Assembly (NCBI GenBank): GCA_030068145.1
Contig: JAPJBO010000963.1
Location: forward strand, 1-64,000
Direction of reading: 5' to 3'
DNA length: 64,000 bases
From: Diplonema papillatum
Taxonomy: Eukaryota > Euglenozoa > Diplonemea > Diplonemida > Diplonemidae
Shown in pieces: positions 7,238 to 58,264 of the stretch; the first letter of the stretch is position 1, and each line of letters starts with the position of its first letter. Made by a program: the position numbers and the translations under genes. The notes beneath the pieces are model-generated. The model was not told where the DNA came from and searched no databases. It worked only from the letters and a program-made list of their open reading frames with translations.

Positions 7238-7356
7238 TGTTGTTCTGCACGTCGACCTTGGCACCAGCTGCGATCAATTCCTTGACAACTTCTGAGTGAC
7301 CGTGGAAGCTGGCAGCATGCAGAGCCGTGTTACCATCTGTGTCATTGGGTGAGCGG
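7238..7356 (-). CDS. Single ankyrin-repeat exon, variant A
   Basis: One 33-residue ankyrin repeat lies antisense to the retroelement: DTDGNTALHAASFHGHSEVV followed by KELIAAGAKVDVQNN. Ankyrin repeats are helix-turn-helix protein-binding modules. The segment is bounded by an acceptor-like TTTTAG (preceded by a pyrimidine-rich stretch) and a donor-like GTATGT, giving a predicted exon of 119 bp with the repeat in one frame. Downstream on the same strand, 7137-7087 could be a further 51-bp exon (KGVQLLDVRLSKLCWNP) between GCAG and GTGAGC. Phase does not fit all variants, so the gene model is uncertain. No other ankyrin repeats are visible nearby, so this may be a captured or relic exon. Confidence 0.7.
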
Positions 7357-7659
7357 CTAAAATGTACAACGACACGAACACAATGTGTGGGTGGTAGCAA
7401 TCAGATGCAGACTGCATCACGGGCAGCCTGAAGCGGGAGGTGTTACTTTCAGATTCACGTCTCAGGGTCGAGACGCAGGCGACAGAGAATGGATGATCTT
7501 GGGCAAACACAAATCTTCCGTGTCATGTGGTGACATGTGGCATCTTCTTGTCCGGAAAGTACATGTTGTGAGCCGCTCTCCACATTGGAATTCGGTGTTT
7601 TTCTTTGGTTCCATCTTTGTTTGATAAGGGAACAAGGGAAAACGACATTCACCGATCTG

Positions 7660-7848
7660 CTATGTATCATCCTGCTTCTTGCATGTCAAAACGTTGTGAC
7701 CCGAATCACCACATCTGGTGCACTTTCGTTTCTTTGCTGCTGGCGGTGGGTCACTTGACGTGCCGCGCTTGGAGCCCTTTCGTGGTTTGTTGATTACCCT
7801 CGGAGCATATTCGTTTGCAACAACCACATCGAAGGGGACGGACCTCAC
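7660..7848 (-). pseudogene. MULE/FAR1-like carboxy-terminal zinc-knuckle fragment
   Basis: About 62 codons ending in a TAG. A basic stretch (KPRKGSKRG, AAKKRK) is followed by CTRCGDSGHNVLTC, a CX2CX4HX4C knuckle of the kind that closes Mutator-like transposases and FAR1-type proteins. No DDE or SWIM domain is visible upstream: the frame meets a stop about three codons before 7848. It is therefore a terminal exon or relic. The roughly 300 bp between it and the ankyrin exon show nothing I recognise. Confidence 0.6.
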
Positions 7849-7938
7849 CCTTGCTTTTCATCCTTCGCTTTTTTCCCTGCCCCCCAAGAGCGGTACCGTC
7901 ACGGGAGGAAGTATCATATTATACCCACGGTTGGCATG

Positions 7939-8111
7939 TAATAATTATTATTAGATTTGATTAGATTTTATTAGATATTATTAGCCTGATTATTACGTAT
8001 TATTAGATCTAATAATGGGTAATAACTAATAATTTCTAATAATTATTATTACCTGGTAATAATTTCTCATAACTTCTAACAAAGTCTAATAATTTCTAAT
8101 AATCTAATAAT
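7939..8111. repeat. TAATA-rich cluster (left type)
   Basis: Irregular tandem repeats of a TCTAATAATT-like motif, about 170 bp, ending at CGCCTGCAG. It contains the 19-bp palindrome ATTATTACCTGGTAATAAT at 8045-8063, also found in the right-type cluster. Confidence 0.85.
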
Positions 8112-8538
8112 CGCCTGCAGAGAGTCCCCAGGAAGTGGGAGGATCAGGGAAAGACTACTCAGTCGGGCTAGGGTCTTGGCAATGAAGCCGCGAAAATGGA
8201 GGGAACCCAGAAATCAAAGTAGCTACGGCCCAAATCTCAAAACATCACCGATTTAGCTCTCGGTGAAAATATCAGATTCAGCTTTCGGTGAAGATCTGCA
8301 GATTGTTCCTTCCATCTCACATTTTGCACTCAGCCCAAAACTCTCATGCGAGTTCAAAATCTGCGAGTTCGTGAGCGCAAACCCGGCGCCCGCCCAGAAA
8401 ACATCACGGTCCCGGACGATGCTCAATGGCGACAAACGCAAAGAAGAAGAGACACGAAAACAACACCAGAATCCATGCCAGGCAAGAGACTGGGTGGCCT
8501 GGCAGTGCAAGCCAAGCGGTGATGCCAAGGTGCTTGCC
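8112..8538. other. Tail of subunit I-u1
   Basis: No gene recognised. A short internal repetition of CGGTGAARAT-like phrases occurs at 8255-8295. Near the end an ATG-led Lys-rich frame starts at 8426, and a second frame opened by GTG at 8263 runs on into the next Gag. Confidence 0.5.
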
Positions 8539-9391
8539 ATGTTTGCGGAGGTGGCAGGGTTCGATCTGCAGCACCTTCTGGCGGTGTTGCTCATGCTGGA
8601 GAGCAAGGATGCCTTGTCCGTAAACAAGGCCGTCGCGAAGGTGGTTCCGGGTTTCGTGGTGCCGCCACCAGGTCCGAGGCCGAAGGAGGATGCATCGAGT
8701 AAGTCGTTTGGCGAGGCAACGACACAACAGCAGTTGCAGCAAATACTCATGCAACAACAGCGCCAGCAGGAAATGATGATGCAGAGGTTGCAACAGGTGC
8801 AGCAGGAGTTGCAAACGGTGAAGGCGCAAGCAGCTGCATGGCCGCCCGCTCCGCAGCAGCACTGGCCGGAGGAAAAATGCCGACTCTTCTTGCGCTCCAG
8901 CGGGAGACGGGCTTCAGCCTCGCGGCCAGCCCGCGACTTCGAGTTCGACGAGGCCGGCATTTGCTGGCTACACGGAGGACGCAACAGACGTCCGAGAGTG
9001 GGAAGGAGCCATGGCAACGGACGTTGCCGGGCTTGTACAAGACCTCCGTCTCAAGTACCTGAACGGTACGGCGCTGGCCGGCAGCTTCGGGCGCTTGCGC
9101 GACTGGGTTGAGGGAGTCGCGCACGGTGGTGGCTGGACGTACAATTTGGAGATTGTACGTTTGGGCAACAACCTCCTGCAGGAGGTCAGGCTGCACCACT
9201 ACTGGTGCACGAAACAACTGCCGCGCGCGGCGAGCTGGCTCAGACGTCGGACGACCCGATGGAGAGGGCAGCTGCCAAGGTCGAGTGTGCGCGGGCCAAG
9301 AAGTGGGAGTGCACGTCCGCGATTCGGCGGCAAAGGTAGCAAGAAAGGATACGCCGCGGCTCAGGGAAACGTGAGACCCGGGGGAAAGTGA
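8539..9391 (+). pseudogene. Gag-like, frameshifted, subunit I-u2
   Basis: Same five-A break. Because the subunit joins directly onto the tail of the previous one, the frame is open upstream. From an ATG at 8419 it would add 40 residues of tail-derived, Lys/Arg-rich sequence to the Gag amino terminus. Confidence 0.6.
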
Positions 9392-9580
9392 CTGGCCCTC
9401 CCCCGGGCCCGGTGGGAGGCGACACTCCCGCATCTGCCAGTAAGGAACGGTCGGCCGCGACAGCTCGCCGGTGCCCGACCGGTGAACGTAAGTTTACCCG
9501 GAAGCGCGAAAACCAGCTTCACGCGCTTTCGAGGTTCAACGCCCGTGCTCGGAAGTCGGCCAACAGCAATCGGACGGGCG

Positions 9581-10529
9581 ATGTTTGACCTGATCGCCAG
9601 CAGGGTTGGAACCACGGTGCCGCGTGGGGTGCAGGCGAAGCACCGGGAACGGCGGGTTTCGTCCGAGGAGGCGATGCAACGCCTGCGCCATTTTGTTGGC
9701 AAGGCATGGGCGGATTCGACAGTGCAGGACCGCCAGAATTTGTGGCACCGCTTCCAGGCATGGCCGGATATGCAGGGATTGCCGGCGGATCCGGATACAG
9801 CAACCCAATTTGTCGTGGCGACAGTGGTCGAGCCGCAGGGCATGCTGGCGTATACCCGCCTCCTTTCAGCGGTCTTTGGCCACCTTGGGGTGGATGCCCG
9901 GCCCCTCCTATCGTTGGCCACGGTCCTCCGTGGTTCAGGAGGCAATATTCCCCTGGAGCAAGCCCTATCAGTGCCGAGGGAGGTGTTGTTAGCTTGGGCA
10001 TTCCGACAGACTCCTCGCGTGCGTGCGGCAGTTTTGATCGCGTGGAAGACGGCTTCGCGGTGGGGCGACGTTCAAAATCTCTCCCGTGCGTGTTTTCCTC
10101 TCATCTCGAACACGGAGATTAGTGGTCGACTGGAACACGCTGCCGAAGGGCCGTCGGGGCAACCCGTTCTGCAGAAGCAAGGTAGTTGCGATCCGGGGAC
10201 CGCTGACCCGGGAGATCGCGGAGTTGCTGCGGGGCCTCGGGAACTTTCAACAGTTGTGCCCCCTCTCGACGGATCAGTTCAGCAGACTGCTCGGAGCGGA
10301 CAACGCGACGAAGCTGTACTCCGCGCACAGCGTGAAGAGGGGCGCCATCGACCACTTGATGAACATGAAGGCTGCGGGAGCTCCGTTCGCGCTGCAGTTG
10401 ATTTCGCGCCTGGCGAAGCACACGAACGACGCCGATCCGACCGTGGCCAACATGACGGTCAGGTACACGTCGGATCCGGTGGCGCTGGCGCGGGTTCTTC
10501 AGACCGGGGACGTGACAAGGTACCTCTGA
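9581..10529 (+). pseudogene. Tyrosine recombinase, frameshifted, subunit I-u2
   Basis: It translates identically to the first copy, including the same frame break before LVVDWN. Confidence 0.8.
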
Positions 10530-10713
10530 GGAGGAGGAAGTCGGACAAGAAGCGGAGGCACCCCCCTATGTGCAAGCACCCCGATCCGGACCCCGGCGGC
10601 TTGTCGTCCATCAACACCAGCGGTACTCCATCCTTCGGAGGGGGAAGCGGACCCGGCTTCCGGGGACAGAGGAAGAGAAGAAGTCGCCGCTGCACGTCGA
10701 CTCGGTACCATCA

Positions 10714-12182
10714 ATGGACGTTGCGGTTCTTCGCCGACGAATGAACGCGCCGACGAGGAAGAGGTTCGATGAGACTTGGTCCCGGACGTTTTACCCGCAG
10801 ACGTTCCCTTCGAAGACGTCTTCACCTCCGGGTCGTTCCCGTTTCGAGGCGGCGCATGCGTTTGAGCTGGAAGAGCACGGAATCGCGGAACGTGCCGCTG
10901 GTCCGGGTAGAGACATGAACGTGCCGTTCACAGTCGTCGAGGAGAAGGAACGTCCCCCTTAGCCACGTGTCGAAGTATCTGCACGCGGTGAATCGAGAGT
11001 GCGGCTCGACCCGGGACTTCAGGTGTGGGTTCTACGGGATGGAGATTCCAGCTCCGTCTCGCCGACTTTTCGCCTTTCAGCGACGGCGACGGCAACTGGT
11101 GGCAATTGACGAGGCTACCGATTGGCCATTCGTGTGCACCCGAGCTGATGTACACATTGGCGTCGACGACCGCGGGGCACCCAGATTACGTCGACGGCAA
11201 GCATGCAGTGTCATCGGAGGTGCTGGTTCACGTCTGGGTGGACAACATCAGATACGCGGGGCCACGCAATCTCGTGTTGAAGGCGACGTCGTATCCGGAC
11301 GCCTTGGCTGCCGAGGCACGCATTACGTCGAAGGCTGCGGATACGAGGAACGCGGCATGCCGCTATGAGTTTCTTGGCGTCGACTGGAAGCATAGCGACG
11401 GCACCGTGGGCGTCTCCGCCAAGATGCAATCGCGTTTGCAGCGCGCCGAGGAGAGTGTTCGAGCGGGTAAGATGTCAGCCGCCGAAATCAAATCCCTGGC
11501 TGGTCGTTTGCTGCACGCGTCGGCGATTGCCGGAGTCTACGTGGGCGAGTACTACTTCGCCCTGAAGTTCTTTCGACTGACGAACGCCCTCAATCGGGGC
11601 GAGAAGTGTCTTGACGAGAACGTGGTTCTGTCACACGGTCTGCAGCGCGCGCTCCCCTCGTGGATGCAGCGTGTTCAGCGTCGCCGAATTGTTCCAGTCG
11701 CTGCTCAATCGCCGAAGTTGGCAGTGTTCGTGGATGCCAGCCTTGATGGTTGGGGAGGTGTACTCGTCGACGTCGACACCAACGACATGGTAGTCGTCGG
11801 CTCTTGTTGGAATCGTGTGGAGAAGCGCCTCCACATAAACCAGCTTGAAGCTATGGCCTTCGAGAGATCCGTGAAGGCCATCTCGCCGGCGTACGCCGGG
11901 TCCACGGTAACGGTCATCGTGGACAACACCTCTGTGCAAGGGGTGGCCCGAAAGGGCGCGTGTTTACGATCGCATATCTTGAACGATGCGGTTGTTCGTG
12001 CTTTGTTGTGTTTGCAGCAACTGAAGGTTGCGCTGTCCGTTAGGTGGGACTGGAGCGCAGGGAATCCCGCTGATCTGCCATCGCGGGTGCCGTTGGCATC
12101 TCTCACCGAACAAAACTTTTCGGATATGTCACTGGCGGTCAGGAGCTTTGTTCTGACTGGCGTCATGGGTCCGGCGGTGTGA
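10714..12182 (+). pseudogene. RT / RNase H, subunit I-u2, with 74-bp deletion
   Basis: GAACG is joined directly to TCCCCCTTAG near 10952, removing the fingers segment and ending the first frame in a stop. The motif A context reads IPAPSRR (CCG) instead of IPAASRR. RNase H is intact. Confidence 0.82.
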
Positions 12183-12330
12183 CCTCCTGGGCTAGCCTGT
12201 TCTCTCACCAACCGTGGCTATCTCGGGGGGGTTACCCCAACGGAAGTGATTTCTCCCCTTTTCCCCTTTCTCCTGAGCTGGAAAGACAGAAGCATGTGCC
12301 CATGCCTGAGTGAGTAGCCGGCGGAGAATT

Positions 12331-12408
12331 CTTGCGATCCATCGTGGGAATTCCACAAAGGCAAACGAACGCTCTCCAGGAATATATCGGTTGGCCGGGT
12401 AGGAATTT
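12331..12408 (-). repeat. Right inverted-repeat arm, subunit I-u2
   Basis: It has no left arm of its own within the subunit. Confidence 0.72.
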
Positions 12409-12574
12409 AGAAGGAGGGCTCACCGGGTTCCAGCAAAGTTTGCTGAGCCGGACGTCCAGTAGCTGTACCCCCTTCTGCAATACCTATGCCTCTTCTGTGG
12501 TGTCATCTGCCTCGCACGTGGGGGCCTCATAGCACCCACATGAACAAAAACATTCTTCGCATCGTAAAACATAC

Positions 12575-12696
12575 ATTTTTTGTTCTGCACGTCGACCTTG
12601 GCACCAGCTGCGATCAATTCCTTGACAACTTTCGAGTGACCGTTGTCGCTGGCAAGATGCAGAGCCGTGTTACCATCTGTGTCATTAGGTGAGCGG
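12575..12696 (-). CDS. Ankyrin-repeat exon, variant B
   Basis: Reads TALHLASDNGHSKVV and ends VDVQNKK, 122 bp between the splice-like sites. It differs from variant A at the residue after LH, the two before GH, the one after GHS, and by three extra bases at the donor edge. The base next to GAGCGG on the + strand also differs (ATTAGG for ATTGGG). Confidence 0.7.
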
Positions 12697-12999
12697 CTAA
12701 AATGTACAACGACACGAACACAATGTGTGGGTGGTAGCAATCAGATGCAGACTGCATCACGGGCAGCCTGAAGCGGGAGGTGTTACTTTCAGATTCACGT
12801 CTCAGGGTCGAGACGCAGGCGACAGAGAATGGATGATCTTGGGCAAACACAAATCTTCCGTGTCATGTGGTGACATGTGGCATCTTCTTGTCCGGAAAGT
12901 ACATGTTGTGAGCCGCTCTCCACATTGGAATTCGGTGTTTTTCTTTGGTTCCATCTTTGTTTGATAAGGGAACAAGGGAAAACGACATTCACCGATCTG

Positions 13000-13188
13000 C
13001 TATGTATCATCCTGCTTCTTGCATGTCAAAACGTTGTGACCCGAATCACCACATCTGGTGCACTTTCGTTTCTTTGCTGCTGGCGGTGGGTCACTTGACG
13101 TGCCGCGCTTGGAGCCCTTTCGTGGTTTGTTGATTACCCTCGGAGCATATTCGTTTGCAACAACCACATCGAAGGGGACGGACCTCAC
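13000..13188 (-). pseudogene. Zinc-knuckle fragment, I-u2
   Basis: Translation identical to the first copy. Confidence 0.6.
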
Positions 13189-13278
13189 CCTTGCTTTTCA
13201 TCCTTCGCTTTTTTCCCTGCCCCCCAAGAGCGGTACCGTCACGGGAGGAAGTATCATATTATACCCACGGTTGGCATG

Positions 13279-13451
13279 TAATAATTATTATTAGATTTGA
13301 TTAGATTTTATTAGATATTATTAGCCTGATTATTACGTATTATTAGATCTAATAATGGGTAATAACTAATAATTTCTAATAATTATTATTACCTGGTAAT
13401 AATTTCTCATAACTTCTAACAAAGTCTAATAATTTCTAATAATCTAATAAT
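13279..13451. repeat. TAATA-rich cluster (left type), I-u2
   Basis: Same as the first copy, with the palindrome at 13385-13403. Confidence 0.85.
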
Positions 13452-13878
13452 CGCCTGCAGAGAGTCCCCAGGAAGTGGGAGGATCAGGGAAAGACTACTC
13501 AGTCGGGCTAGGGTCTTGGCAATGAAGCCGCGAAAATGGAGGGAACCCAGAAATCAAAGTAGCTACGGCCCAAATCTCAAAACATCACCGATTTAGCTCT
13601 CGGTGAAAATATCAGATTCAGCTTTCGGTGAAGATCTGCAGATTGTTCCTTCCATCTCACATTTTGCACTCAGCCCAAAACTCTCATGCGAGTTCAAAAT
13701 CTGCGAGTTCGTGAGCGCAAACCCGGCGCCCGCCCAGAAAACATCACGGTCCCGGACGATGCTCAATGGCGACAAACGCAAAGAAGAAGAGACACGAAAA
13801 CAACACCAGAATCCATGCCAGGCAAGAGACTGGGTGGCCTGGCAGTGCAAGCCAAGCGGTGATGCCAAGGTGCTTGCC
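13452..13878. other. Tail of subunit I-u2
   Basis: Same as 8112-8538 and likewise fused to the next Gag. Confidence 0.5.
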
Positions 13879-14731
13879 ATGTTTGCGGAGGTGGCAGGGT
13901 TCGATCTGCAGCACCTTCTGGCGGTGTTGCTCATGCTGGAGAGCAAGGATGCCTTGTCCGTAAACAAGGCCGTCGCGAAGGTGGTTCCGGGTTTCGTGGT
14001 GCCGCCACCAGGTCCGAGGCCGAAGGAGGATGCATCAAGTAAGTCGTTTGGCGAGGCAACGACACAACAGCAGTTGCAGCAAATACTCATGCAACAACAG
14101 CGCCAGCAGGAAATGATGATGCAGAGGTTGCAACAGGTGCAGCAGGAGTTGCAAACGGTGAAGGCGCAAGCAGCTGCATGGCCGCCCGCTCCGCAGCAGC
14201 ACTGGCCGGAGGAAAAATGCCGACTCTTCTTGCGCTCCAGCGGGAGACGGGCTTCAGCCTCGCGGCCAGCCCGCGACTTCGAGTTCGACGAGGCCGGCAT
14301 TTGCTGGCTACACGGAGGACGCAACAGACGTCCGAGAGTGGGAAGGAGCCATGGCAACGGACGTTGCCGGGCTTGTACAAGACCTCCGTCTCAAGTACCT
14401 GAACGGTACGGCGCTGGCCGGCAGCTTCGGGCGCTTGCGCGACTGGGTTGAGGGAGTCGCGCACGGTGGTGGCTGGACGTACAATTTGGAGATTGTACGT
14501 TTGGGCAACAACCTCCTGCAGGAGGTCAGGCTGCACCACTACTGGTGCACGAAACAACTGCCGCGCGCGGCGAGCTGGCTCAGACGTCGGACGACCCGAT
14601 GGAGAGGGCAGCTGCCAAGGTCGAGTGTGCGCGGGCCAAGAAGTGGGAGTGCACGTCCGCGATTCGGCGGCAAAGGTAGCAAGAAAGGATACGCCGCGGC
14701 TCAGGGAAACGTGAGACCCGGGGGAAAGTGA
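13879..14731 (+). pseudogene. Gag-like, frameshifted, subunit I-u3
   Basis: As I-u2, with the same upstream fusion (ATG at 13759). A silent TCG to TCA change in an early serine codon is shared with IV-u2 and IV-u3. Confidence 0.6.
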
Positions 14732-14920
14732 CTGGCCCTCCCCCGGGCCCGGTGGGAGGCGACACTCCCGCATCTGCCAGTAAGGAACGGTCGGCCGCGA
14801 CAGCTCGCCGGTGCCCGACCGGTGAACGTAAGTTTACCCGGAAGCGCGAAAACCAGCTTCACGCGCTTTCGAGGTTCAACGCCCGTGCTCGGAAGTCGGC
14901 CAACAGCAATCGGACGGGCG

Positions 14921-15869: not shown

Positions 15870-16053
15870 GGAGGAGGAAGTCGGACAAGAAGCGGAGGCA
15901 CCCCCCTATGTGCAAGCACCCCGATCCGGACCCCGGCGGCTTGTCGTCCATCAACACCAGCGGTACTCCATCCTTCGGAGGGGGAAGCGGACCCGGCTTC
16001 CGGGGACAGAGGAAGAGAAGAAGTCGCCGCTGCACGTCGACTCGGTACCATCA

Positions 16054-17914: not shown

Positions 17915-18033
17915 ATTTGTTCTGCACGTCGACCTTGGCACCAGCTGCGATCAATTCCTTGACAACTTCTGAGTGACCGTTGAAGCTGGCAGCATGCAGA
18001 GCCGTGTTACCATCTGTGTCATTGGGTGAGCGG
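17915..18033 (-). CDS. Ankyrin-repeat exon, variant C
   Basis: Reads TALHAASFNGHSEVV and ends VDVQNK, 119 bp. It is close to variant A, with His to Asn before GH and a different donor edge (AAAT for AACA). Confidence 0.7.
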
Positions 18034-24239: not shown

Positions 24240-24361
24240 ATTTTTTGTTCTGCACGTCGACCTTGGCACCAGCTGCGATCAATTCCTTGACAACTTTCGA
24301 GTGACCATTGTCGCTGGCAATATGCAGAGCCGTGGCACCATCTGTGTCATTGGGTGAGCGG
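24240..24361 (-). CDS. Ankyrin-repeat exon, variant D (unit II)
   Basis: Reads GATALHIASDNGHSKVV and ends VDVQNKK, 122 bp. It is the only copy with Ala after DTDG and with the ATT (Ile) plus AAT (Asn) codons. The acceptor side also has changes (CTAGAAAG), so this unit has drifted slightly outside the exon too. Confidence 0.7.
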
Positions 24362-25019: not shown

Positions 25020-25250
25020 CATACTATGCAGTCCGCCGCATTCCGCCCGACTTACACGGACTAAAAATACTCCCACACGGACTTACACGGAATCGGGGTG
25101 AGTCCGTCTGGGGTGCGGGTGGGGTGCGGGTGAACGTTTTCCAATGAAAATACTCAGTATCCTTAGTATTGCTTCGTATTCTTAGTATTTCTATTCTTGC
25201 ACATAACAGTCGTTGCGAACTTGGTCATTGCGGTTGCGGAGACCAGCAGC
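25020..25250 (+). repeat. Left terminal inverted repeat of the hAT-like element
   Basis: The outer 27 bp match the right end perfectly. Further in, GGTGCGGGTGAACGTTTTCC and GCGGAGACCAGCAGC are shared with the right end, with small indels between. CACGGACT/AGTCCGT motifs are repeated. Confidence 0.85.
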
Positions 25251-25293
25251 AAGAACACAGGAAACAAACACACAACTTCGAAGGGGGGGGGGA

Positions 25294-27561
25294 ATGGGAA
25301 GGCCTAAGGGCTCGAAAAACAAGGCGAAGGCCGGCAAGTCTGAACCGTCCAACAAGAAGAGAAGGGTGACAATGAGCCAGGCCATGCAGGATGCGGAGTC
25401 CAGCAGCGAAGCACCGACTAGCGAAGCACCGAACAGTGAAGCACCGACCAGCGATTCCGAAGGTGGCTCGTCCGTCCCGATGTCGGTCTCGTCGGTTCTT
25501 GGTCCGCTCTTTGAGGCAGTCGAGGCAGCCTCACAGGCTGACGATGCAGGTTCACAGACAGAAGATGCAGGTTCACAGACAGAAGATGCAGGTTCACAGG
25601 CCGGCGGGTCAGCCTCACAGGCTGGTACGCCAGCCTCGCAGACAAAGGTGGTCAAAAGACCGTCTAAGCTGCAGCTCCGAAAGGGGCTGGCGAAGGGCGC
25701 AGCGAAGGTTGCAGTGGCCGGCAGCAAACGCCACAATCTGCTGATTACAGCCGTAAAAAGGATGAACAAGCTCACAGACGCAGAAAAGGAAGGCTTGGAG
25801 CTCAGGAAGGTGAAGGACCTCCCTTCATCTTGGAAGTCGTTAGCACTCAGAGACCCCAACGTCACGTTGCAGGAAGAAGTGATCTGGTGCGGTTCATGCC
25901 AAAAGAAAATCAACTACCTCGACAGCACCACGTGCAAGAAGCATCACACCTACGAAGAACACAAGAAGAGGCACACACTTCTGGTGGCACAAAAAAAGGC
26001 TGGCGCGGTTGTTGTGGACGTTGACGCCGGTACCGCAAACGTCACTGAAAAGGGGACCGCCGTACAGGACTTCACGAGGTTGGTTGCGATGGCCGGCATG
26101 AAGGCAGGGGCAGTGGCTTGCATGCGTGTCTTTTTCAGAAAGCATGTCTCCCCGGCAATTCCCCACACGAGGACGCTCATGGATATGAGTCGGGGGTGCG
26201 ATGCGAAGACGCAGATGCAGAAGGATCTAATAGAGACGATCGGGACATCGTTTGGCATTGGGTTTGATGGATCCATCATCGACGAGCTCAAGGAGCAGGC
26301 ATTGGCAGTGGTCGCATACGACAAGGGACGAGCATACTTGCTGGGACTTCGCGTTGGAGAGGACGGTGAAGCCTTGGACACAACCTCTCAGTCGGAGTTT
26401 GTTGCCAACGTCCTCAAGGACTACGGGATCAAGATACCCAACGTCGCTTACATCGTCGTTGACAAGGCGTCGACGAACGTGGTCGCCCTTCAGGACTGGG
26501 AGGGCATTGTGATATACTGCTTCGGTCACCATCTGAAAAATGCCATCAAGCCGTGGTTCAAGCTGAGTCACCCGAACGCCCACGACACACTGCGTCTCTT
26601 CAGCAACGCTTTCTACAAAGCACCCACGCGTGAGGTTCGGTGGGTGCAGGCGCAGAAGGCAGTCGTGACCCATGATGTCGATGCAGCCGCTACAGAAGAC
26701 GAGATTCCGATCGCCCAAAAGCTGACTGCCCTGCTGTCGTTGCACGAGGATGGCGAAGACGTCGAAGCTGACATCCTTGAGTGTCTTGGTGAAGGAGATG
26801 GAGACATGTTGGAGCGTGCAAAGGAGAGGTTGACGCAAGCTCAAAATGAGAACGTGCCAGTGGACTTGACACCAGAACCACAACGCGAGCAACGTCCCAG
26901 CCCGGAATACCCCCCCTCTATCAACGACACGAGGTGGGATTCCACCTTCAGATGCCTTGCCCACCTGGTCCCCCGCCTGCAGTCTCTTCCAGCATTTCTT
27001 GAGAAAGAACTGAAAAGGAACACCACACCCGAGAGTATCCAACTACTTGCGGGGAAGTTCAGCGATGCAGACGTCACAGAAACGTGTGCAGCTCTTGTAA
27101 CGGCCTTGGAAGCCATGGAACCCGTCATGCCCCTTTTCAGTTTTGCTGCTGATCCACCCGCGCGCAAGCCCCTTGCAGCGGAACTCCCCGCCATGGTTGC
27201 AAAAGCCATGAAGGCCGTTGGCAACGATCTCTCCGCCGTCCTGAAAGAGATGTGGAGCACCTATCTTTCCCGGGACATCTTCAAATCCATGTGGCTCTTT
27301 TGCCCTGAGAAGCTGGGTACGAAGAAGGCAGCGGGAATTGCCATCCCCTCAGTGGAGTCAATCACGGACACATTCAAGGGCGTGTTTCACCGCGACGCCA
27401 AAACCCAACTGGGCGAGTACCTGAAGGTTTCGATCAGCGTCCTGACGAAATGGAAGGATGCCGATGCATTCTGGACTTCGAAGCCCTTTACTACTGCAAA
27501 CAAAGACATCTCTGGGAGGTTCAAGGACTTCGACGACGAACATTCGCTGTCTCGGGTGTGA
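25294..27561 (+). CDS. hAT-like transposase, 755 aa
   Basis: It would excise and reinsert the surrounding element in the nucleus. I start at ATG 25294: it opens with an AT-hook (GRPKGSKNK) and a basic patch, whereas the frame upstream has no ATG and lies in the terminal repeat. An acidic Ser/Gln region with three SQTEDAG-type repeats follows (residues 78-115). Next is a BED-like zinc finger (C199, C202, H223, H227), then the hAT core: IVVDKASTN with Asp390, YCFGHHLKN (C409, H412) and NDTRWDS (W548). I cannot find the carboxy-terminal hATC dimerisation signature. The frame ends in FKDFDDEHSLSRV at a duplicated segment, so the end may be altered or spliced. Confidence 0.75.
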   Translation: MGRPKGSKNKAKAGKSEPSNKKRRVTMSQAMQDAESSSEAPTSEAPNSEAPTSDSEGGSSVPMSVSSVLGPLFEAVEAASQADDAGSQTEDAGSQTEDAGSQAGGSASQAGTPASQTKVVKRPSKLQLRKGLAKGAAKVAVAGSKRHNLLITAVKRMNKLTDAEKEGLELRKVKDLPSSWKSLALRDPNVTLQEEVIWCGSCQKKINYLDSTTCKKHHTYEEHKKRHTLLVAQKKAGAVVVDVDAGTANVTEKGTAVQDFTRLVAMAGMKAGAVACMRVFFRKHVSPAIPHTRTLMDMSRGCDAKTQMQKDLIETIGTSFGIGFDGSIIDELKEQALAVVAYDKGRAYLLGLRVGEDGEALDTTSQSEFVANVLKDYGIKIPNVAYIVVDKASTNVVALQDWEGIVIYCFGHHLKNAIKPWFKLSHPNAHDTLRLFSNAFYKAPTREVRWVQAQKAVVTHDVDAAATEDEIPIAQKLTALLSLHEDGEDVEADILECLGEGDGDMLERAKERLTQAQNENVPVDLTPEPQREQRPSPEYPPSINDTRWDSTFRCLAHLVPRLQSLPAFLEKELKRNTTPESIQLLAGKFSDADVTETCAALVTALEAMEPVMPLFSFAADPPARKPLAAELPAMVAKAMKAVGNDLSAVLKEMWSTYLSRDIFKSMWLFCPEKLGTKKAAGIAIPSVESITDTFKGVFHRDAKTQLGEYLKVSISVLTKWKDADAFWTSKPFTTANKDISGRFKDFDDEHSLSRV

Positions 27562-37694: not shown

Positions 37695-37814
37695 CCTTGC
37701 TCTGCACGTCGACCTTGGCACCAGCTGCGATCAACTCCTTGACAACTTCTGAGTGACCGTTCCAGGCTGGCAAGATGCAGAGCCGTGTAACCATCTGTGT
37801 CATTGGGTGAGCGG
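37695..37814 (-). pseudogene. Ankyrin-repeat exon, variant E, frameshifted (unit III)
   Basis: Begins GYTALHLAS, then one extra base (CTGG where others have a three-base codon) moves the rest, WNGHSEVVKELIAAGAKV, to another frame. It ends VQSKG. A private GAG replaces GAA in KEL. Confidence 0.7.
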
Positions 37815-47453: not shown

Positions 47454-47575
47454 TGTTTTGTTCTGCACGTCGACCTTGGCACCAGCTGCGATCAATTCCT
47501 TGACAACTTCTGAGTGACCGTTCTCGCTGGCAGCAATGCAGAGCCGTGTTACCATCTGTGTCATTGGGTGAGCGG
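47454..47575 (-). pseudogene. Ankyrin-repeat exon, variant F, frameshifted (IV-u1)
   Basis: One extra T after the LH codons breaks the frame. The downstream part would read ASENGHSEVV in the shifted frame. Two extra bases at the donor edge bring the total length back to 122 bp. Confidence 0.7.
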
Positions 47576-49610: not shown

Positions 49611-49799
49611 CTGGCCCTCCCCCGGGCCCGGTGGGAGGCGACACTCCCGCATCTGCCAGTAAGGAACGGTCGGCCGCGACAGCTCGCCGGTGCCCGACCG
49701 GTGAACGTAAGTTTACCCGGAAGCGCGAAAACCAGCTTCACGCGCTTTCGAGGTTCAACGCCCGTGCTCGGAAGTCGGCCAACAGCAATCGGACGGGCG

Positions 49800-50748
49800 A
49801 TGTTTGACCTGATCGCCAGCAGGGTTGGAACCACGGTGCCGCGTGGGGTGCAGGCGAAGCACCGGGAACGGCGGGTTTCGTCCGAGGAGGCGATGCAACG
49901 CCTGCGCCATTTTGTTGGCAAGGCATGGGCGGATTCGACAGTGCAGGACCGCCAGAATTTGTGGCACCGCTTCCAGGCATGGCCGGATATGCAGGGATTG
50001 CCGGCGGATCCGGATACAGCAACCCAATTTGTCGTGGCGACAGTGGTCGAGCCGCAGGGCATGCTGGCGTATACCCGCCTCCTTTCAGCGGTCTTTGGCC
50101 ACCTTGGGGTGGATGCCCGGCCCCTCCTATCGTTGGCCACGGTCCTCCGTGGTTCAGGAGGCAATATTCCCCTGGAGCAAGCCCTATCAGTGCCGAGGGA
50201 GGTGTTGTTAGCTTGGGCATTCCGACAGACTCCTCGCGTGCGTGCGGCAGTTTTGATCGCGTGGAAGACGGCTTCGCGGTGGGGCGACGTTCAAAATCTC
50301 TCCCGTGCGTGTTTTCCTCTCATCTCGAACACGGAGATTAGTGGTCGACTGGAACACGCTGCCGAAGGGCCGTCGGGGCAACCCGTTCTGCAGAAGCAAG
50401 GTAGTTGCGATCCGGGGACCGCTGACCCGGGAGATCGCGGAGTTGCTGCGGGGCCTCGGGAACTTTCAACAGTTGTGCCCCCTCTCGACGGATCAGTTCA
50501 GCAGACTGCTCGGAGCGGACAACGCGACGAAGCTGTACTCCGCGCACAGCGTGAAGAGGGGCGCCATCGACCACTTGATGAACATGAAGGCTGCGGGAGC
50601 TCCGTTCGCGCTGCAGTTGATTTCGCGCCTGGCGAAGCACACGAACGACGCCGATCCGACCGTGGCCAACATGACGGTCAGGTACACGTCGGATCCGGTG
50701 GCGCTGGCGCGGGTTCTTCAGACCGGGGACGTGACAAGGTACCTCTGA
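49800..50748 (+). pseudogene. Tyrosine recombinase, frameshifted, subunit IV-u2
   Basis: Identical translation and break. Confidence 0.8.
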
Positions 50749-50932
50749 GGAGGAGGAAGTCGGACAAGAAGCGGAGGCACCCCCCTATGTGCAAGCACCC
50801 CGATCCGGACCCCGGCGGCTTGTCGTCCATCAACACCAGCGGTACTCCATCCTTCGGAGGGGGAAGCGGACCCGGCTTCCGGGGACAGAGGAAGAGAAGA
50901 AGTCGCCGCTGCACGTCGACTCGGTACCATCA

Positions 50933-52401
50933 ATGGACGTTGCGGTTCTTCGCCGACGAATGAACGCGCCGACGAGGAAGAGGTTCGATGAGACTTGGTC
51001 CCGGACGTTTTACCCGCAGACGTTCCCTTCGAAGACGTCTTCACCTCCGGGTCGTTCCCGTTTCGAGGCGGCGCATGCGTTTGAGCTGGAAGAGCACGGA
51101 ATCGCGGAACGTGCCGCTGGTCCGGGTAGAGACATGAACGTGCCGTTCACAGTCGTCGAGGAGAAGGAACGTCCCCCTTAGCCACGTGTCGAAGTATCTG
51201 CACGCGGTGAATCGAGAGTGCGGCTCGACCCGGGACTTCAGGTGTGGGTTCTACGGGATGGAGATTCCAGCTCCGTCTCGCCGACTTTTCGCCTTTCAGC
51301 GACGGCGACGGCAACTGGTGGCAATTGACGAGGCTACCGATTGGCCATTCGTGTGCACCCGAGCTGATGTACACATTGGCGTCGACGACCGCGGGGCACC
51401 CAGATTACGTCGACGGCAAGCATGCAGTGTCATCGGAGGTGCTGGTTCACGTCTGGGTGGACAACATCAGATACGCGGGGCCACGCAATCTCGTGTTGAA
51501 GGCGACGTCGTATCCGGACGCCTTGGCTGCCGAGGCACGCATTACGTCGAAGGCTGCGGATACGAGGAACGCGGCATGCCGCTATGAGTTTCTTGGCGTC
51601 GACTGGAAGCATAGCGACGGCACCGTGGGCGTCTCCGCCAAGATGCAATCGCGTTTGCAGCGCGCCGAGGAGAGTGTTCGAGCGGGTAAGATGTCAGCCG
51701 CCGAAATCAAATCCCTGGCTGGTCGTTTGCTGCACGCGTCGGCGATTGCCGGAGTCTACGTGGGCGAGTACTACTTCGCCCTGAAGTTCTTTCGACTGAC
51801 GAACGCCCTCAATCGGGGCGAGAAGTGTCTTGACGAGAACGTGGTTCTGTCACACGGTCTGCAGCGCGCGCTCCCCTCGTGGATGCAGCGTGTTCAGCGT
51901 CGCCGAATTGTTCCAGTCGCTGCTCAATCGCCGAAGTTGGCAGTGTTCGTGGATGCCAGCCTTGATGGTTGGGGAGGTGTACTCGTCGACGTCGACACCA
52001 ACGACATGGTAGTCGTCGGCTCTTGTTGGAATCGTGTGGAGAAGCGCCTCCACATAAACCAGCTTGAAGCTATGGCCTTCGAGAGATCCGTGAAGGCCAT
52101 CTCGCCGGCGTACGCCGGGTCCACGGTAACGGTCATCGTGGACAACACCTCTGTGCAAGGGGTGGCCCGAAAGGGCGCGTGTTTACGATCGCATATCTTG
52201 AACGATGCGGTTGTTCGTGCTTTGTTGTGTTTGCAGCAACTGAAGGTTGCGCTGTCCGTTAGGTGGGACTGGAGCGCAGGGAATCCCGCTGATCTGCCAT
52301 CGCGGGTGCCGTTGGCATCTCTCACCGAACAAAACTTTTCGGATATGTCACTGGCGGTCAGGAGCTTTGTTCTGACTGGCGTCATGGGTCCGGCGGTGTG
52401 A
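50933..52401 (+). pseudogene. RT / RNase H, subunit IV-u2, with 74-bp deletion
   Basis: 74-bp deletion plus the proline variant. Confidence 0.82.
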
Positions 52402-52549
52402 CCTCCTGGGCTAGCCTGTTCTCTCACCAACCGTGGCTATCTCGGGGGGGTTACCCCAACGGAAGTGATTTCTCCCCTTTTCCCCTTTCTCCTGAGCTGG
52501 AAAGACAGAAGCATGTGCCCATGCCTGAGTGAGTAGCCGGCGGAGAATT

Positions 52550-52627
52550 CTTGCGATCCATCGTGGGAATTCCACAAAGGCAAACGAACGCTCTCCAGGA
52601 ATATATCGGTTGGCCGGGTAGGAATTT
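52550..52627 (-). repeat. Right inverted-repeat arm, subunit IV-u2
   Basis: No left arm within the subunit. Confidence 0.72.
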
Positions 52628-52793
52628 AGAAGGAGGGCTCACCGGGTTCCAGCAAAGTTTGCTGAGCCGGACGTCCAGTAGCTGTACCCCCTTCTGCAAT
52701 ACCTATGCCTCTTCTGTGGTGTCATCTGCCTCGCACGTGGGGGCCTCATAGCACCCACATGAACAAAAACATTCTTCGCATCGTAAAACATAC

Positions 52794-52912
52794 ATTTGTT
52801 CTGCACGTCGACCTTGGCACCAGCTGCGATCAATTCCTTGACAACTTTCGAGTGACCGTTGTCGCTGGCAATATGCAGAGCCGTGTTACCATCTGTGTCA
52901 TTGGGTGAGCGG
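52794..52912 (-). CDS. Ankyrin-repeat exon, variant G (IV-u2)
   Basis: Reads TALHIASDNGHSKVV and ends VDVQNK, 119 bp: the repeat body of variant D (without its Ala) combined with the donor edge of variant C. Confidence 0.7.
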
Positions 52913-53215
52913 CTAAAATGTACAACGACACGAACACAATGTGTGGGTGGTAGCAATCAGATGCAGACTGCATCACGGGCAGCCTGAAGCGGGAGGTGTT
53001 ACTTTCAGATTCACGTCTCAGGGTCGAGACGCAGGCGACAGAGAATGGATGATCTTGGGCAAACACAAATCTTCCGTGTCATGTGGTGACATGTGGCATC
53101 TTCTTGTCCGGAAAGTACATGTTGTGAGCCGCTCTCCACATTGGAATTCGGTGTTTTTCTTTGGTTCCATCTTTGTTTGATAAGGGAACAAGGGAAAACG
53201 ACATTCACCGATCTG

Positions 53216-53404
53216 CTATGTATCATCCTGCTTCTTGCATGTCAAAACGTTGTGACCCGAATCACCACATCTGGTGCACTTTCGTTTCTTTGCTGCTGGC
53301 GGTGGGTCACTTGACGTGCCGCGCTTGGAGCCCTTTCGTGGTTTGTTGATTACCCTCGGAGCATATTCGTTTGCAACAACCACATCGAAGGGGACGGACC
53401 TCAC
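53216..53404 (-). pseudogene. Zinc-knuckle fragment, IV-u2
   Basis: Translation identical to the first copy. Confidence 0.6.
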
Positions 53405-53494
53405 CCTTGCTTTTCATCCTTCGCTTTTTTCCCTGCCCCCCAAGAGCGGTACCGTCACGGGAGGAAGTATCATATTATACCCACGGTTGGCATG

Positions 53495-53667
53495 TAATAA
53501 TTATTATTAGATTTGATTAGATTTTATTAGATATTATTAGCCTGATTATTACGTATTATTAGATCTAATAATGGGTAATAACTAATAATTTCTAATAATT
53601 ATTATTACCTGGTAATAATTTCTCATAACTTCTAACAAAGTCTAATAATTTCTAATAATCTAATAAT
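53495..53667. repeat. TAATA-rich cluster (left type), IV-u2
   Basis: Same length class as I-u1. Confidence 0.85.
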
Positions 53668-54094
53668 CGCCTGCAGAGAGTCCCCAGGAAGTGGGAGGAT
53701 CAGGGAAAGACTACTCAGTCGGGCTAGGGTCTTGGCAATGAAGCCGCGAAAATGGAGGGAACCCAGAAATCAAAGTAGCTACGGCCCAAATCTCAAAACA
53801 TCACCGATTTAGCTCTCGGTGAAAATATCAGATTCAGCTTTCGGTGAAGATCTGCAGATTGTTCCTTCCATCTCACATTTTGCACTCAGCCCAAAACTCT
53901 CATGCGAGTTCAAAATCTGCGAGTTCGTGAGCGCAAACCCGGCGCCCGCCCAGAAAACATCACGGTCCCGGACGATGCTCAATGGCGACAAACGCAAAGA
54001 AGAAGAGACACGAAAACAACACCAGAATCCATGCCAGGCAAGAGACTGGGTGGCCTGGCAGTGCAAGCCAAGCGGTGATGCCAAGGTGCTTGCC
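53668..54094. other. Tail of subunit IV-u2
   Basis: Same as 8112-8538. Confidence 0.5.
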
Positions 54095-54947
54095 ATGTTT
54101 GCGGAGGTGGCAGGGTTCGATCTGCAGCACCTTCTGGCGGTGTTGCTCATGCTGGAGAGCAAGGATGCCTTGTCCGTAAACAAGGCCGTCGCGAAGGTGG
54201 TTCCGGGTTTCGTGGTGCCGCCACCAGGTCCGAGGCCGAAGGAGGATGCATCAAGTAAGTCGTTTGGCGAGGCAACGACACAACAGCAGTTGCAGCAAAT
54301 ACTCATGCAACAACAGCGCCAGCAGGAAATGATGATGCAGAGGTTGCAACAGGTGCAGCAGGAGTTGCAAACGGTGAAGGCGCAAGCAGCTGCATGGCCG
54401 CCCGCTCCGCAGCAGCACTGGCCGGAGGAAAAATGCCGACTCTTCTTGCGCTCCAGCGGGAGACGGGCTTCAGCCTCGCGGCCAGCCCGCGACTTCGAGT
54501 TCGACGAGGCCGGCATTTGCTGGCTACACGGAGGACGCAACAGACGTCCGAGAGTGGGAAGGAGCCATGGCAACGGACGTTGCCGGGCTTGTACAAGACC
54601 TCCGTCTCAAGTACCTGAACGGTACGGCGCTGGCCGGCAGCTTCGGGCGCTTGCGCGACTGGGTTGAGGGAGTCGCGCACGGTGGTGGCTGGACGTACAA
54701 TTTGGAGATTGTACGTTTGGGCAACAACCTCCTGCAGGAGGTCAGGCTGCACCACTACTGGTGCACGAAACAACTGCCGCGCGCGGCGAGCTGGCTCAGA
54801 CGTCGGACGACCCGATGGAGAGGGCAGCTGCCAAGGTCGAGTGTGCGCGGGCCAAGAAGTGGGAGTGCACGTCCGCGATTCGGCGGCAAAGGTAGCAAGA
54901 AAGGATACGCCGCGGCTCAGGGAAACGTGAGACCCGGGGGAAAGTGA
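54095..54947 (+). pseudogene. Gag-like, frameshifted, subunit IV-u3
   Basis: Same break and same upstream fusion as IV-u2. Confidence 0.6.
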
Positions 54948-55136
54948 CTGGCCCTCCCCCGGGCCCGGTGGGAGGCGACACTCCCGCATCTGCCAGTAAG
55001 GAACGGTCGGCCGCGACAGCTCGCCGGTGCCCGACCGGTGAACGTAAGTTTACCCGGAAGCGCGAAAACCAGCTTCACGCGCTTTCGAGGTTCAACGCCC
55101 GTGCTCGGAAGTCGGCCAACAGCAATCGGACGGGCG

Positions 55137-56085
55137 ATGTTTGACCTGATCGCCAGCAGGGTTGGAACCACGGTGCCGCGTGGGGTGCAGGCGAAGCACC
55201 GGGAACGGCGGGTTTCGTCCGAGGAGGCGATGCAACGCCTGCGCCATTTTGTTGGCAAGGCATGGGCGGATTCGACAGTGCAGGACCGCCAGAATTTGTG
55301 GCACCGCTTCCAGGCATGGCCGGATATGCAGGGATTGCCGGCGGATCCGGATACAGCAACCCAATTTGTCGTGGCGACAGTGGTCGAGCCGCAGGGCATG
55401 CTGGCGTATACCCGCCTCCTTTCAGCGGTCTTTGGCCACCTTGGGGTGGATGCCCGGCCCCTCCTATCGTTGGCCACGGTCCTCCGTGGTTCAGGAGGCA
55501 ATATTCCCCTGGAGCAAGCCCTATCAGTGCCGAGGGAGGTGTTGTTAGCTTGGGCATTCCGACAGACTCCTCGCGTGCGTGCGGCAGTTTTGATCGCGTG
55601 GAAGACGGCTTCGCGGTGGGGCGACGTTCAAAATCTCTCCCGTGCGTGTTTTCCTCTCATCTCGAACACGGAGATTAGTGGTCGACTGGAACACGCTGCC
55701 GAAGGGCCGTCGGGGCAACCCGTTCTGCAGAAGCAAGGTAGTTGCGATCCGGGGACCGCTGACCCGGGAGATCGCGGAGTTGCTGCGGGGCCTCGGGAAC
55801 TTTCAACAGTTGTGCCCCCTCTCGACGGATCAGTTCAGCAGACTGCTCGGAGCGGACAACGCGACGAAGCTGTACTCCGCGCACAGCGTGAAGAGGGGCG
55901 CCATCGACCACTTGATGAACATGAAGGCTGCGGGAGCTCCGTTCGCGCTGCAGTTGATTTCGCGCCTGGCGAAGCACACGAACGACGCCGATCCGACCGT
56001 GGCCAACATGACGGTCAGGTACACGTCGGATCCGGTGGCGCTGGCGCGGGTTCTTCAGACCGGGGACGTGACAAGGTACCTCTGA
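55137..56085 (+). pseudogene. Tyrosine recombinase, frameshifted, subunit IV-u3
   Basis: Identical translation and break. Confidence 0.8.
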
Positions 56086-56269
56086 GGAGGAGGAAGTCGG
56101 ACAAGAAGCGGAGGCACCCCCCTATGTGCAAGCACCCCGATCCGGACCCCGGCGGCTTGTCGTCCATCAACACCAGCGGTACTCCATCCTTCGGAGGGGG
56201 AAGCGGACCCGGCTTCCGGGGACAGAGGAAGAGAAGAAGTCGCCGCTGCACGTCGACTCGGTACCATCA

Positions 56270-57753
56270 ATGGACGTTGCGGTTCTTCGCCGACGAATGA
56301 ACGCGCCGACGAGGAAGAGGTTCGATGAGACTTGGTCCCGGACGTTTTACCCGCAGACGTTCCCTTCGAAGACGTCTTCACCTCCGGGTCGTTCCCGTTT
56401 CGAGGCGGCGCATGCGTTTGAGCTGGAAGAGCACGGAATCGCGGAACGTGCCGCTGGTCCGGGTAGAGACATGAACGTGCCGTTCACAGTCGTCGAGGAG
56501 AAGGAACGTCCCCCTTAGCCACGTGTCGAAGTATCACGTGCACGTGTCGGTGCACGCGGTGAATCGAGAGTGCGGCTCGACCCGGGACTTCAGGTGTGGG
56601 TTCTACGGGATGGAGATTCCAGCTGCGTCTCGCCGACTTTTCGCCTTTCAGCGACGGCGACGGCAACTGGTGGCAATTGACGAGGCTACCGATTGGCCAT
56701 TCGTGTGCACCCGAGCTGATGTACACATTGGCGTCGACGACCGCGGGGCACCCAGATTACGTCGACGGCAAGCATGCAGTGTCATCGGAGGTGCTGGTTC
56801 ACGTCTGGGTGGACAACATCAGATACGCGGGGCCACGCAATCTCGTGTTGAAGGCGACGTCGTATCCGGACGCCTTGGCTGCCGAGGCACGCATTACGTC
56901 GAAGGCTGCGGATACGAGGAACGCGGCATGCCGCTATGAGTTTCTTGGCGTCGACTGGAAGCATAGCGACGGCACCGTGGGCGTCTCCGCCAAGATGCAA
57001 TCGCGTTTGCAGCGCGCCGAGGAGAGTGTTCGAGCGGGTAAGATGTCAGCCGCCGAAATCAAATCCCTGGCTGGTCGTTTGCTGCACGCGTCGGCGATTG
57101 CCGGAGTCTACGTGGGCGAGTACTACTTCGCCCTGAAGTTCTTTCGACTGACGAACGCCCTCAATCGGGGCGAGAAGTGTCTTGACGAGAACGTGGTTCT
57201 GTCACACGGTCTGCAGCGCGCGCTCCCCTCGTGGATGCAGCGTGTTCAGCGTCGCCGAATTGTTCCAGTCGCTGCTCAATCGCCGAAGTTGGCAGTGTTC
57301 GTGGATGCCAGCCTTGATGGTTGGGGAGGTGTACTCGTCGACGTCGACACCAACGACATGGTAGTCGTCGGCTCTTGTTGGAATCGTGTGGAGAAGCGCC
57401 TCCACATAAACCAGCTTGAAGCTATGGCCTTCGAGAGATCCGTGAAGGCCATCTCGCCGGCGTACGCCGGGTCCACGGTAACGGTCATCGTGGACAACAC
57501 CTCTGTGCAAGGGGTGGCCCGAAAGGGCGCGTGTTTACGATCGCATATCTTGAACGATGCGGTTGTTCGTGCTTTGTTGTGTTTGCAGCAACTGAAGGTT
57601 GCGCTGTCCGTTAGGTGGGACTGGAGCGCAGGGAATCCCGCTGATCTGCCATCGCGGGTGCCGTTGGCATCTCTCACCGAACAAAACTTTTCGGATATGT
57701 CACTGGCGGTCAGGAGCTTTGTTCTGACTGGCGTCATGGGTCCGGCGGTGTGA
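56270..57753 (+). pseudogene. RT / RNase H, subunit IV-u3, deletion plus 15-bp insertion
   Basis: 74-bp deletion with the alanine variant, and an extra ACGTGCACGTGTCGG at 56536-56550. This repeats part of the CACGTGTCG found just upstream. Confidence 0.82.
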
Positions 57754-57901
57754 CCTCCTGGGCTAGCCTGTTCTCTCACCAACCGTGGCTATCTCGGGGG
57801 GGTTACCCCAACGGAAGTGATTTCTCCCCTTTTCCCCTTTCTCCTGAGCTGGAAAGACAGAAGCATGTGCCCATGCCTGAGTGAGTAGCCGGCGGAGAAT
57901 T

Positions 57902-57979
57902 CTTGCGATCCATCGTGGGAATTCCACAAAGGCAAACGAACGCTCTCCAGGAATATATCGGTTGGCCGGGTAGGAATTT
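57902..57979 (-). repeat. Right inverted-repeat arm, subunit IV-u3
   Basis: No left arm within the subunit. Confidence 0.72.
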
Positions 57980-58145
57980 AGAAGGAGGGCTCACCGGGTT
58001 CCAGCAAAGTTTGCTGAGCCGGACGTCCAGTAGCTGTACCCCCTTCTGCAATACCTATGCCTCTTCTGTGATGTCATCTGCCTCGCACGTGGGGGCCTCA
58101 TAGCACCCACATGAACAAAAACATTCTTCGCATCGTAAAACATAC

Positions 58146-58264
58146 TGTTGTTCTGCACGTCGACGTTGGCACCAGCTGCGATCAATTCCTTGACAACTTC
58201 TGAGTGACCGTTCTAGCTGGCAGCATGCAGAGCCGTGTTACCATCTGTGTCATTGGGTGAGCGG
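58146..58264 (-). pseudogene. Ankyrin-repeat exon, variant H, stop codon (IV-u3)
   Basis: Reads TALHAAS, then TAG, then NGHSEVV; later AKV becomes ANV. The donor edge equals variant A. A single base change at the variable codon (GAG, TTC, GAC in others) creates the stop. Confidence 0.7.

Follow-up and report, generated by a model that had tools for sequence, protein, structure and literature searches.

Background

How can an exon of about 100 bp differ in every copy when the DNA on both sides of it hardly differs at all? The question is posed by a 64,000-nucleotide stretch of the genome of Diplonema papillatum, a haploid marine euglenozoan (assembly GCA_030068145.1, contig JAPJBO010000963.1, positions 1 to 64,000; hereafter the window), which carries eight copies of an exon encoding an ankyrin repeat, all on the minus strand and all distinct in DNA. 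The best explanation for these exons, to which we assign a probability of roughly 0.5, is an ankyrin-kinase receptor family in which the paratope codons are under diversifying selection and the rest is under concerted evolution. Judged from sequence, the exon arrays resemble a library of binding modules, of natural origin, that would serve a family of kinase receptors. The exon is most likely part of a host gene in which an ankyrin array is followed by a kinase, a candidate receptor family with introns that bear transposable elements (TEs).

The D. papillatum genome (~280 Mb, sequenced with PacBio and Illumina, with evidence for haploidy) consists of 52% repeats, has GT-AG introns that, when long, often contain TEs, and encodes kinases in numbers comparable to those of human and plants (PMC10161547). 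The word 'ankyrin' is absent from the text of the genome paper, as far as that text was available to us (PMC10161547).

A variable exon amid near-identical DNA

A first-pass annotation of the window had reported eight mutually different exon copies, and both their positions and the residue changes quoted for them are correct. A ninth copy lies just beyond the window end, at contig position 67043, giving nine units on the contig as a whole (C963 below). When the eight window copies are aligned, 7238-7347 holds 17 substitution columns and 3 indel sites, and the other ~1145 bp of 6690-7944 hold 4 variable columns (7163, 7360, 7363 and 7401), the last three of which are caused by the 24240 copy alone. 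The left side of unit 24240 is unrelated to the other units beyond ~595 bp. Between units 37695 and 58146, the exon shows 9 substitutions and 1 indel, and none of the 1652 surrounding bp differs; units 7238 and 52794 differ by 9 exon substitutions and at 0 of 1653 surrounding bp. Frameshifting indels occur in exons 37695 and 47454, and a stop in exon 58146. The earlier claim that changes are concentrated in the exon is borne out by this alignment and by the diversity of 51 modules described below.

Read on the minus strand, the exon runs CACAG/AT GGT ... CAG AAC AAC A/GTATGT (slashes mark putative splice sites) and measures 99 or 102 bp in most copies. The extent of ~120 bp originally given to it is probably 20 bp too long on the high-coordinate side, 99-102 bp (e.g. 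7238-7336) being the more probable length. With these putative splice sites, one exon corresponds to one 33-residue ankyrin repeat in symmetric phase 1, so that gain, loss or recombination of exons leaves the frame intact. Equal-length symmetric exons of this kind (99/102 bp, x/AT...A/, if spliced as predicted) stand in arrays of nine modules on each of two contigs. A 68-residue query of two repeats matched 467 distinct PDB sequences (E up to 0.001), the top matches being ankyrin-repeat proteins and designed ankyrin repeat proteins (DARPins), and the deposited protein DIPPA_01611, considered as a protein sequence only, has two such repeats fused in the register expected from the putative splice sites. 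At another locus, a separate ankyrin gene (L050, 6696-7245, minus strand), carrying some six consecutive degenerate repeats, is close to one of the exons described here.

Further copies were sought in the 271-Mb assembly, where each search gave 727-763 exon candidates at first look and the best 40 were scored. Our module sample consists of the 40 best-scoring places of one search (30 of them fetched) together with the exons within the fetched stretches; it is not random and is biased towards exons that resemble window exon 1 and whose frameworks are intact. Of 78 BLAST hits, 12 fell below the coverage filter (a degenerate exon and an intact exon place, L029/L049, were lost in this way), and 13 were duplicates from overlapping loci. 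The 53 hits that were kept gave 51 exons, L044 being unparsed (a change after the donor site) and one place being repeated, and these 51 exons make up 50 distinct combinations at the scored fields. An ~825-bp module, the exon with its conserved intron flanks, was present whole or in greater part in all 30 loci first fetched; 8 of the 30 had no other match of more than 80 bp to the 3.2 kb around window exon 1. Two exact framework patterns, one of 32 and one of 29 bases, had no match in viral and prokaryotic contigs. Just past the module, at 7948-8111 and at its counterparts in other units, lie AT-rich arrays of a 10-bp unit (TTATTAGATT / CTAATAATTT).

The codons that vary

Seven codons vary strongly across the 51 exon copies, nine of which lie on C963, amid nearly identical surrounding DNA, with a pairwise diversity per site of 0.38 at the hot positions, 0.0216 in the framework and 0.0095 in the intron flank. 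Among the 1275 module pairs, 165 show no flank substitution and differ on average at 3.53 of 5 hot codons; in pairs with more flank differences the value stays near 4 of 5. Flank-identical modules form clusters of 16, 12, 6, 2, 2 and 2, within each of which all exons are distinct.

In the 31 standard 99-nt exons, on which the residue and substitution counts below are based, at least three residues occur at ankyrin positions 1, 2, 3, 5, 9, 10, 13, 14, 18 and 29, and at least four at positions 1, 2, 3, 5, 10, 13 and 14. The variable positions cover all five DARPin contact positions (2, 3, 5, 13 and 14; P 0.001), mapped by spacing from the randomised residues listed in PMC3602593, which agrees with the annotation's view that the variable codons form the binding surface of the ankyrin fold. 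Twelve states, one of them a TAG stop (three exons), occur at position 13, and nine at position 5. The codons labelled X1 (50/50) and X3 (45/45, both counts including the one repeated place) end in C or G, and their codon positions 1-2 vary widely. X2 is not associated with X1 or X3 (p 0.27 and 0.22), though they are 9-15 bp apart. At codons 17-18, TCA GAA and TCG AAA tend to change together, one of the two changes being silent; AAA occurs only with TCG in the 51 exons.

For the framework, nonsynonymous (pN) and synonymous (pS) differences per site are 0.0025 and 0.036 (0.0026 and 0.018 without Ser17), a pN/pS ratio of 0.07, or 0.14 without Ser17. Because pN is far below pS, the framework is constrained; silent positions in it are no younger than the intron, which has a diversity of 0.0099 in the same modules. 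At the hot codons, pN is 0.29 and pS 0.18. The framework of the 51 parsed exons is free of indels and stops, and the 11 frameshifts (each of 1-2 nt) and 3 stops, which affect 14 of the 51 exons, are all located at hot codons; the intron flank shows 15 gap patterns in 731 columns. Some in-frame length variants recur among exons. When nearest-neighbour exons are compared, 24 of 54 indel-free codon changes involve at least two bases.

Exons and flanks across paralogous arrays

Exon 24240 has a letter-for-letter copy at C1864:8321, with flanks that differ by 11 substitutions and 1 gap in 1.9 kb. Compared with the same exon, C2169:6873 shows 1 exon substitution and 1 flank substitution (of 898), and C2169:544 differs from unit 17915 by 4 substitutions in the exon and 5 in the flank (of 1643). 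The two C2169 exons are spaced 6329 bp apart, like 17915 and 24240 (6325 bp). C1864 holds two exons separated by 6.3 kb, at 2019 and 8321, whose identity to exon 24240 is 99 and 100%; they have barely diversified. At matching positions of paralogous arrays, then, exons are shared or nearly so and flanks differ; inside one array the reverse holds.

Two single nucleotide polymorphisms (SNPs) in the flank distinguish the arrays. Site -403 is C in all 9 C963 units and G in both C2169 units and the C1864 unit; site -519 is C in all 9 C963 units and T in C2169:544 and C1864:8321. The state at -403, and likewise that at -519, follows the array and not the unit type, which points to homogenised flanks, as concerted evolution with retained exons predicts. 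Because homogenised flanks can look young, invariant flanks are not by themselves a clock. The annotation had argued from invariant flanks to focused diversification of the exon. The concentration of variation on which it relied is real, but the persistence of exon 24240 in diverged flanks and the array-following SNPs mean that focused mutation is not required.

Across the sample, flank diversity is 0.0025 within contigs and 0.0099 between them (0/2000 shuffles), and the corresponding contrast for hot-codon difference is much weaker (0.65 versus 0.76, p 0.003). There are two flank lineages, about a dozen sites apart, and exon codons are scattered over both. Recombination between flank SNPs was rejected, as each of the five pairs counted gave three gametes and no fourth, although sites on opposite sides of the exon are less strongly associated than those within the left flank.

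A kinase downstream of the exons

On contig C1920, nine exon modules, the last of them partial, are followed by a kinase coding stretch. The open reading frame (ORF) at L052 matches Pfam Pkinase (PF00069, E 1.4e-35), contains HRDIKPQN, has DLG at the DFG position and an incomplete N-lobe; the best match of the kinase ORF in the protein collection is 36% identical over 66%. The best 150 of 663 kinase candidates were scored: 27 are stop-free over the full 239 residues, another 3 sit in open frames of 466 aa, and others are cut short or contain stops. A listed kinase occurs on 25 of the contigs with listed exon places, and these 25 account for 37 of the 101 places; exon and kinase are on the same strand in 37/37, and the kinase is downstream in 29/37. 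In L038, L051 and L052, the framework of the exon nearest the kinase is damaged. No kinase was found for the window's own array, whose kinase side reaches the contig start. The C1920 array (L036-L038) is spaced at ~2.5 kb in part and has an ORF of 267 aa; the genome paper describes a dispersed 20-kb tandem repeat of eight 2.5-kb units with a 283-aa ORF that is apparently not transcribed (PMC10161547), so the spacing fits but the ORF length differs (267 versus 283 aa).

The annotation had placed the exon inside a transposon array. We read it differently: it is most likely a host-gene exon, since arrays of this family lead into a kinase and 8 of the 30 loci share the module alone. Because those 8 loci match only the ~825-bp module, the retroelement of the window is best regarded as the intron content of one sub-family.

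Competing explanations

The receptor family that we favour would be an expanded D. papillatum gene family with many single-repeat ankyrin exons and then a protein kinase domain. Exon and intron would be duplicated together, in tandem or as blocks, to enlarge the arrays, and unequal exchange and gene conversion would keep the introns, which in part consist of TEs, similar to one another. Framework codons would be under purifying selection and paratope codons would be pushed apart by diversifying selection, presumably the main force, and some exon variants would be old enough to be common to arrays at matching positions. If the exons are spliced and expressed as predicted, the protein would bind varied partners through its ankyrin face and signal through the kinase, a putative role in recognition.

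Several observations weigh against this account. Conversion that homogenises the DNA to the left and right of an exon would be expected to overwrite the exon itself in many cases, and selection cannot favour the three stops and 11 frameshifts at variable codons; silent differences are also raised at the hot codons (pS 0.18). The similarity of hot codons is slightly, and significantly, higher within contigs than between them, and within flank lineage I flank diversity is 0.0026 within contigs and 0.0027 between them, so that homogenisation is not strictly per array. The array evidence comprises two SNPs and three paralogous comparisons only. In the search for donor exons that the annotation had proposed, one of four tested window exons (24240) has its exact copy, and exons 7238, 47454 and 58146 have none among the best 40 scored of ~730 candidates. 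D. papillatum genes lie in one-way clusters (PMC10161547), which weakens the argument from exon and kinase strand; the 5' end of the gene was not found, only the kinase end having been read, and no transcript was seen.

Alternatively, a mutagenic or templated short-patch process could act on the variable codons after exon duplication, in tracts of a codon or two or by conversion between cassettes within about 300 bp; we regard such focused diversification, on this scale, as possible but doubtful. It would account for the difference of 3.53 of 5 hot codons in the 165 flank-identical pairs and for flank-identical clusters that hold distinct exons only, for indels and stops that gather at hot codons when the intron has 15 gap patterns in 731 columns, and for changes of at least two bases in 24 of 54 cases. 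The raised silent differences, the C or G endings of X1 and X3 beside widely varying positions 1-2, the scattering of exon codons over two flank lineages, and the lack of association of X2 with X1 and X3 where flank SNP pairs show three gametes would all fit as well. Yet exon 24240 is shared between arrays despite 12 flank differences, paralog matches show only 0-4 exon changes, and the third positions of X1 and X3 are never A or T, which a blind mutator would give. Frameshifts at variable codons suggest either a mutation hotspot or uncorrected read errors, and in a PacBio and Illumina assembly they may be sequencing errors. A more specific form, in which a dedicated process rewrites paratope codons one by one, sparing third positions and framework, and fresh exon duplicates of a kinase receptor serve as a naive binding library, we think unlikely. 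Other mechanisms were rejected. Whole-exon shuffling as the sole source does not fit 50 combinations in 51 places, with three of four exons lacking an exact copy among the 40 scored; constant-rate hypermutation is contradicted by the exon 24240 pair, with its identical exon and 12 flank differences; and adenine mutagenesis of the whole exon, of the kind driven by diversity-generating retroelements, is at odds with the few framework adenines that vary (six sites, five in 1-3 of 51 exons and one in 12 of 51) against a diversity of ~0.4 at hot sites, a comparison judged on the adenine feature alone.

The contrast might also be in part an artefact of assembly, consensus building having smoothed the flanks and left long-read errors or chimeric calls where copies disagree, which in our judgement is quite unlikely. 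The assembly draws on ~700,000 PacBio and ~900 million Illumina reads from a genome of 52% repeats, its authors mention artificially duplicated or collapsed repeats, and read polishing is not mentioned in the main text, so far as it was available (PMC10161547); moreover, frameshifts of 1-2 nt stand at sites of copy conflict, and these may indeed be artefacts. Such an artefact would leave unexplained the framework constraint (pN/pS of 0.07, or 0.14 without Ser17), the two flank lineages about a dozen sites apart, which survived assembly, and the coincidence of hot codons with paratope positions, to which errors would be blind. Some in-frame length variants recur, and the authors found PacBio support for another tandem array (PMC10161547). 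Very unlikely, in our view, is a decaying repeat, in which retroelements would have spread an old ankyrin-kinase gene whose copies are now for the most part untranscribed relics, with diversity inherited from a once functional pool. A stop or frameshift in 14 of 51 exons, damaged frameworks next to the kinase in L038, L051 and L052, kinase copies that contain stops or are cut short, and the apparently untranscribed ORF of the published tandem 2.5-kb repeat (PMC10161547) are all in keeping with decay; against it stand the 51 frameworks without indels or stops, from a sample that favours good matches, and the 27 complete kinase places (239 residues, without stop) with 3 more in 466-aa frames.

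Comparison with known systems

The HNWD genes of Podospora anserina (het-e, het-d and het-r) share with the ankyrin-kinase family highly alike repeats, concerted evolution and diversifying selection, which acts there on four surface codons per WD40 repeat; they differ in that they encode WD40 repeats for fungal non-self recognition, whereas Diplonema has one ankyrin repeat per exon, dispersed arrays, TE-bearing introns and a kinase (PMC2873952). The leucine-rich repeat (LRR) genes of Tetrahymena likewise have exon arrays of equal length and one intron phase, and comprise tens of thousands of exons with recent clonal expansion and a retroelement (REP) tied to introns, but their exons are 90 bp in phase 2, as against 99 bp in phase 1 with an ankyrin repeat and a kinase in Diplonema (PMC6564038). 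Equal-length repeat exons of symmetric phase (LRR 72 bp, phase 2) are also found in the LRR-ROCO and NB-ARC-tetratricopeptide repeat (TPR) genes of brown algae, proposed immune receptors with shuffled exons, which differ from the Diplonema genes in repeats, signalling domains and eukaryotic supergroup (PMC11378527). The host of the window exons is D. papillatum and not a brown alga, the group with whose exon shuffling the annotation had drawn a comparison, and membership of the ROCO or NB-ARC-TPR families was rejected, the domain found at the end that was read being a kinase. With DARPin libraries the exons share the 33-residue ankyrin framework and variation at the randomised contact positions; DARPins are engineered, and the Diplonema exons vary strongly at positions 1 and 10 as well (PMC3602593, PMC8683736).

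As far as we have seen, novelty lies in the lineage, in the pairing of ankyrin repeats with a kinase and in the agreement of the variable positions with the DARPin design surface; literature searches naming diplonemids, within the sources they returned, turned up no comparable kinase-linked repertoire of binding modules for this group. A haploid host in which gene replacement has been reported (PMC10161547) offers a system for asking how recognition repertoires diversify amid uniform surroundings, and the case warns against reading invariant flanks alone as a clock.

Other features of the window

Table 1. Coordinates of the exon copies, the module and the intron ORFs in the window (slashes mark putative splice sites).
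Feature	Position	Strand	Remarks
Ankyrin exon copy 1	7238..7336	minus	99 bp; variable codons AAC/GCT/TTC CAC; putative splice sites from CACAG/AT.../GTATGT and 33-aa length
Ankyrin exon copy 2	12575..12676	minus	102 bp
Ankyrin exon copy 3	17915..18013	minus	99 bp
Ankyrin exon copy 4	24240..24341	minus	102 bp; exact copy at C1864:8321
Ankyrin exon copy 5	37695..37794	minus	100 bp; +1 at variable codon
Ankyrin exon copy 6	47454..47555	minus	102 bp; +1 at variable codon, +2 at 3' end
Ankyrin exon copy 7	52794..52892	minus	99 bp
Ankyrin exon copy 8	58146..58244	minus	99 bp; TAG stop at variable codon
~825-bp exon module (exon and conserved intron flanks)	7100..7925	minus	repeated around each exon copy
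Reverse transcriptase RNase H-like ORF, 396 aa	10992..12182	plus	also at 5655, 16332, 36112, 45871, 51211, 56563
163-aa ORF, apparently the recombinase of the first-pass annotation	10038..10529	plus	identical 7/7; no Pfam match
Zinc-knuckle coding stretch in intron flank	7694..7722	minus	ORF identical 8/8

Three ORFs between the exons do not vary among their seven copies: the reverse transcriptase (RT) RNase H-like ORF, the recombinase-like ORF and one of 450 aa. The RT ORF matches Pfam RT_RNaseH (PF17917, 3.5e-6) and is 95-100% identical to D. papillatum proteins, and the 450-aa ORF, like the 163-aa one, has no Pfam match. Of the two features expected of a DIRS-like retrotransposon, RT-RNaseH and a tyrosine recombinase, Pfam thus gave the first alone. 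A recombinase identical in seven copies had been reported; the identity of the copies is confirmed, but the naming is not, RT-RNaseH giving the only domain match. The zinc-knuckle fragment is the same in all eight copies, as had been stated. On another contig, L053 (C1118:61485-61838) holds a cox1-like fragment that is degenerate, contains stops and was probably inserted into the nuclear genome from mitochondrial DNA. In the window, 25207-27561 holds a 784-aa open frame with internal 15-, 21- and 42-bp repeats, whose only named relative found is a D. papillatum hypothetical protein with 81% identity over 37%.

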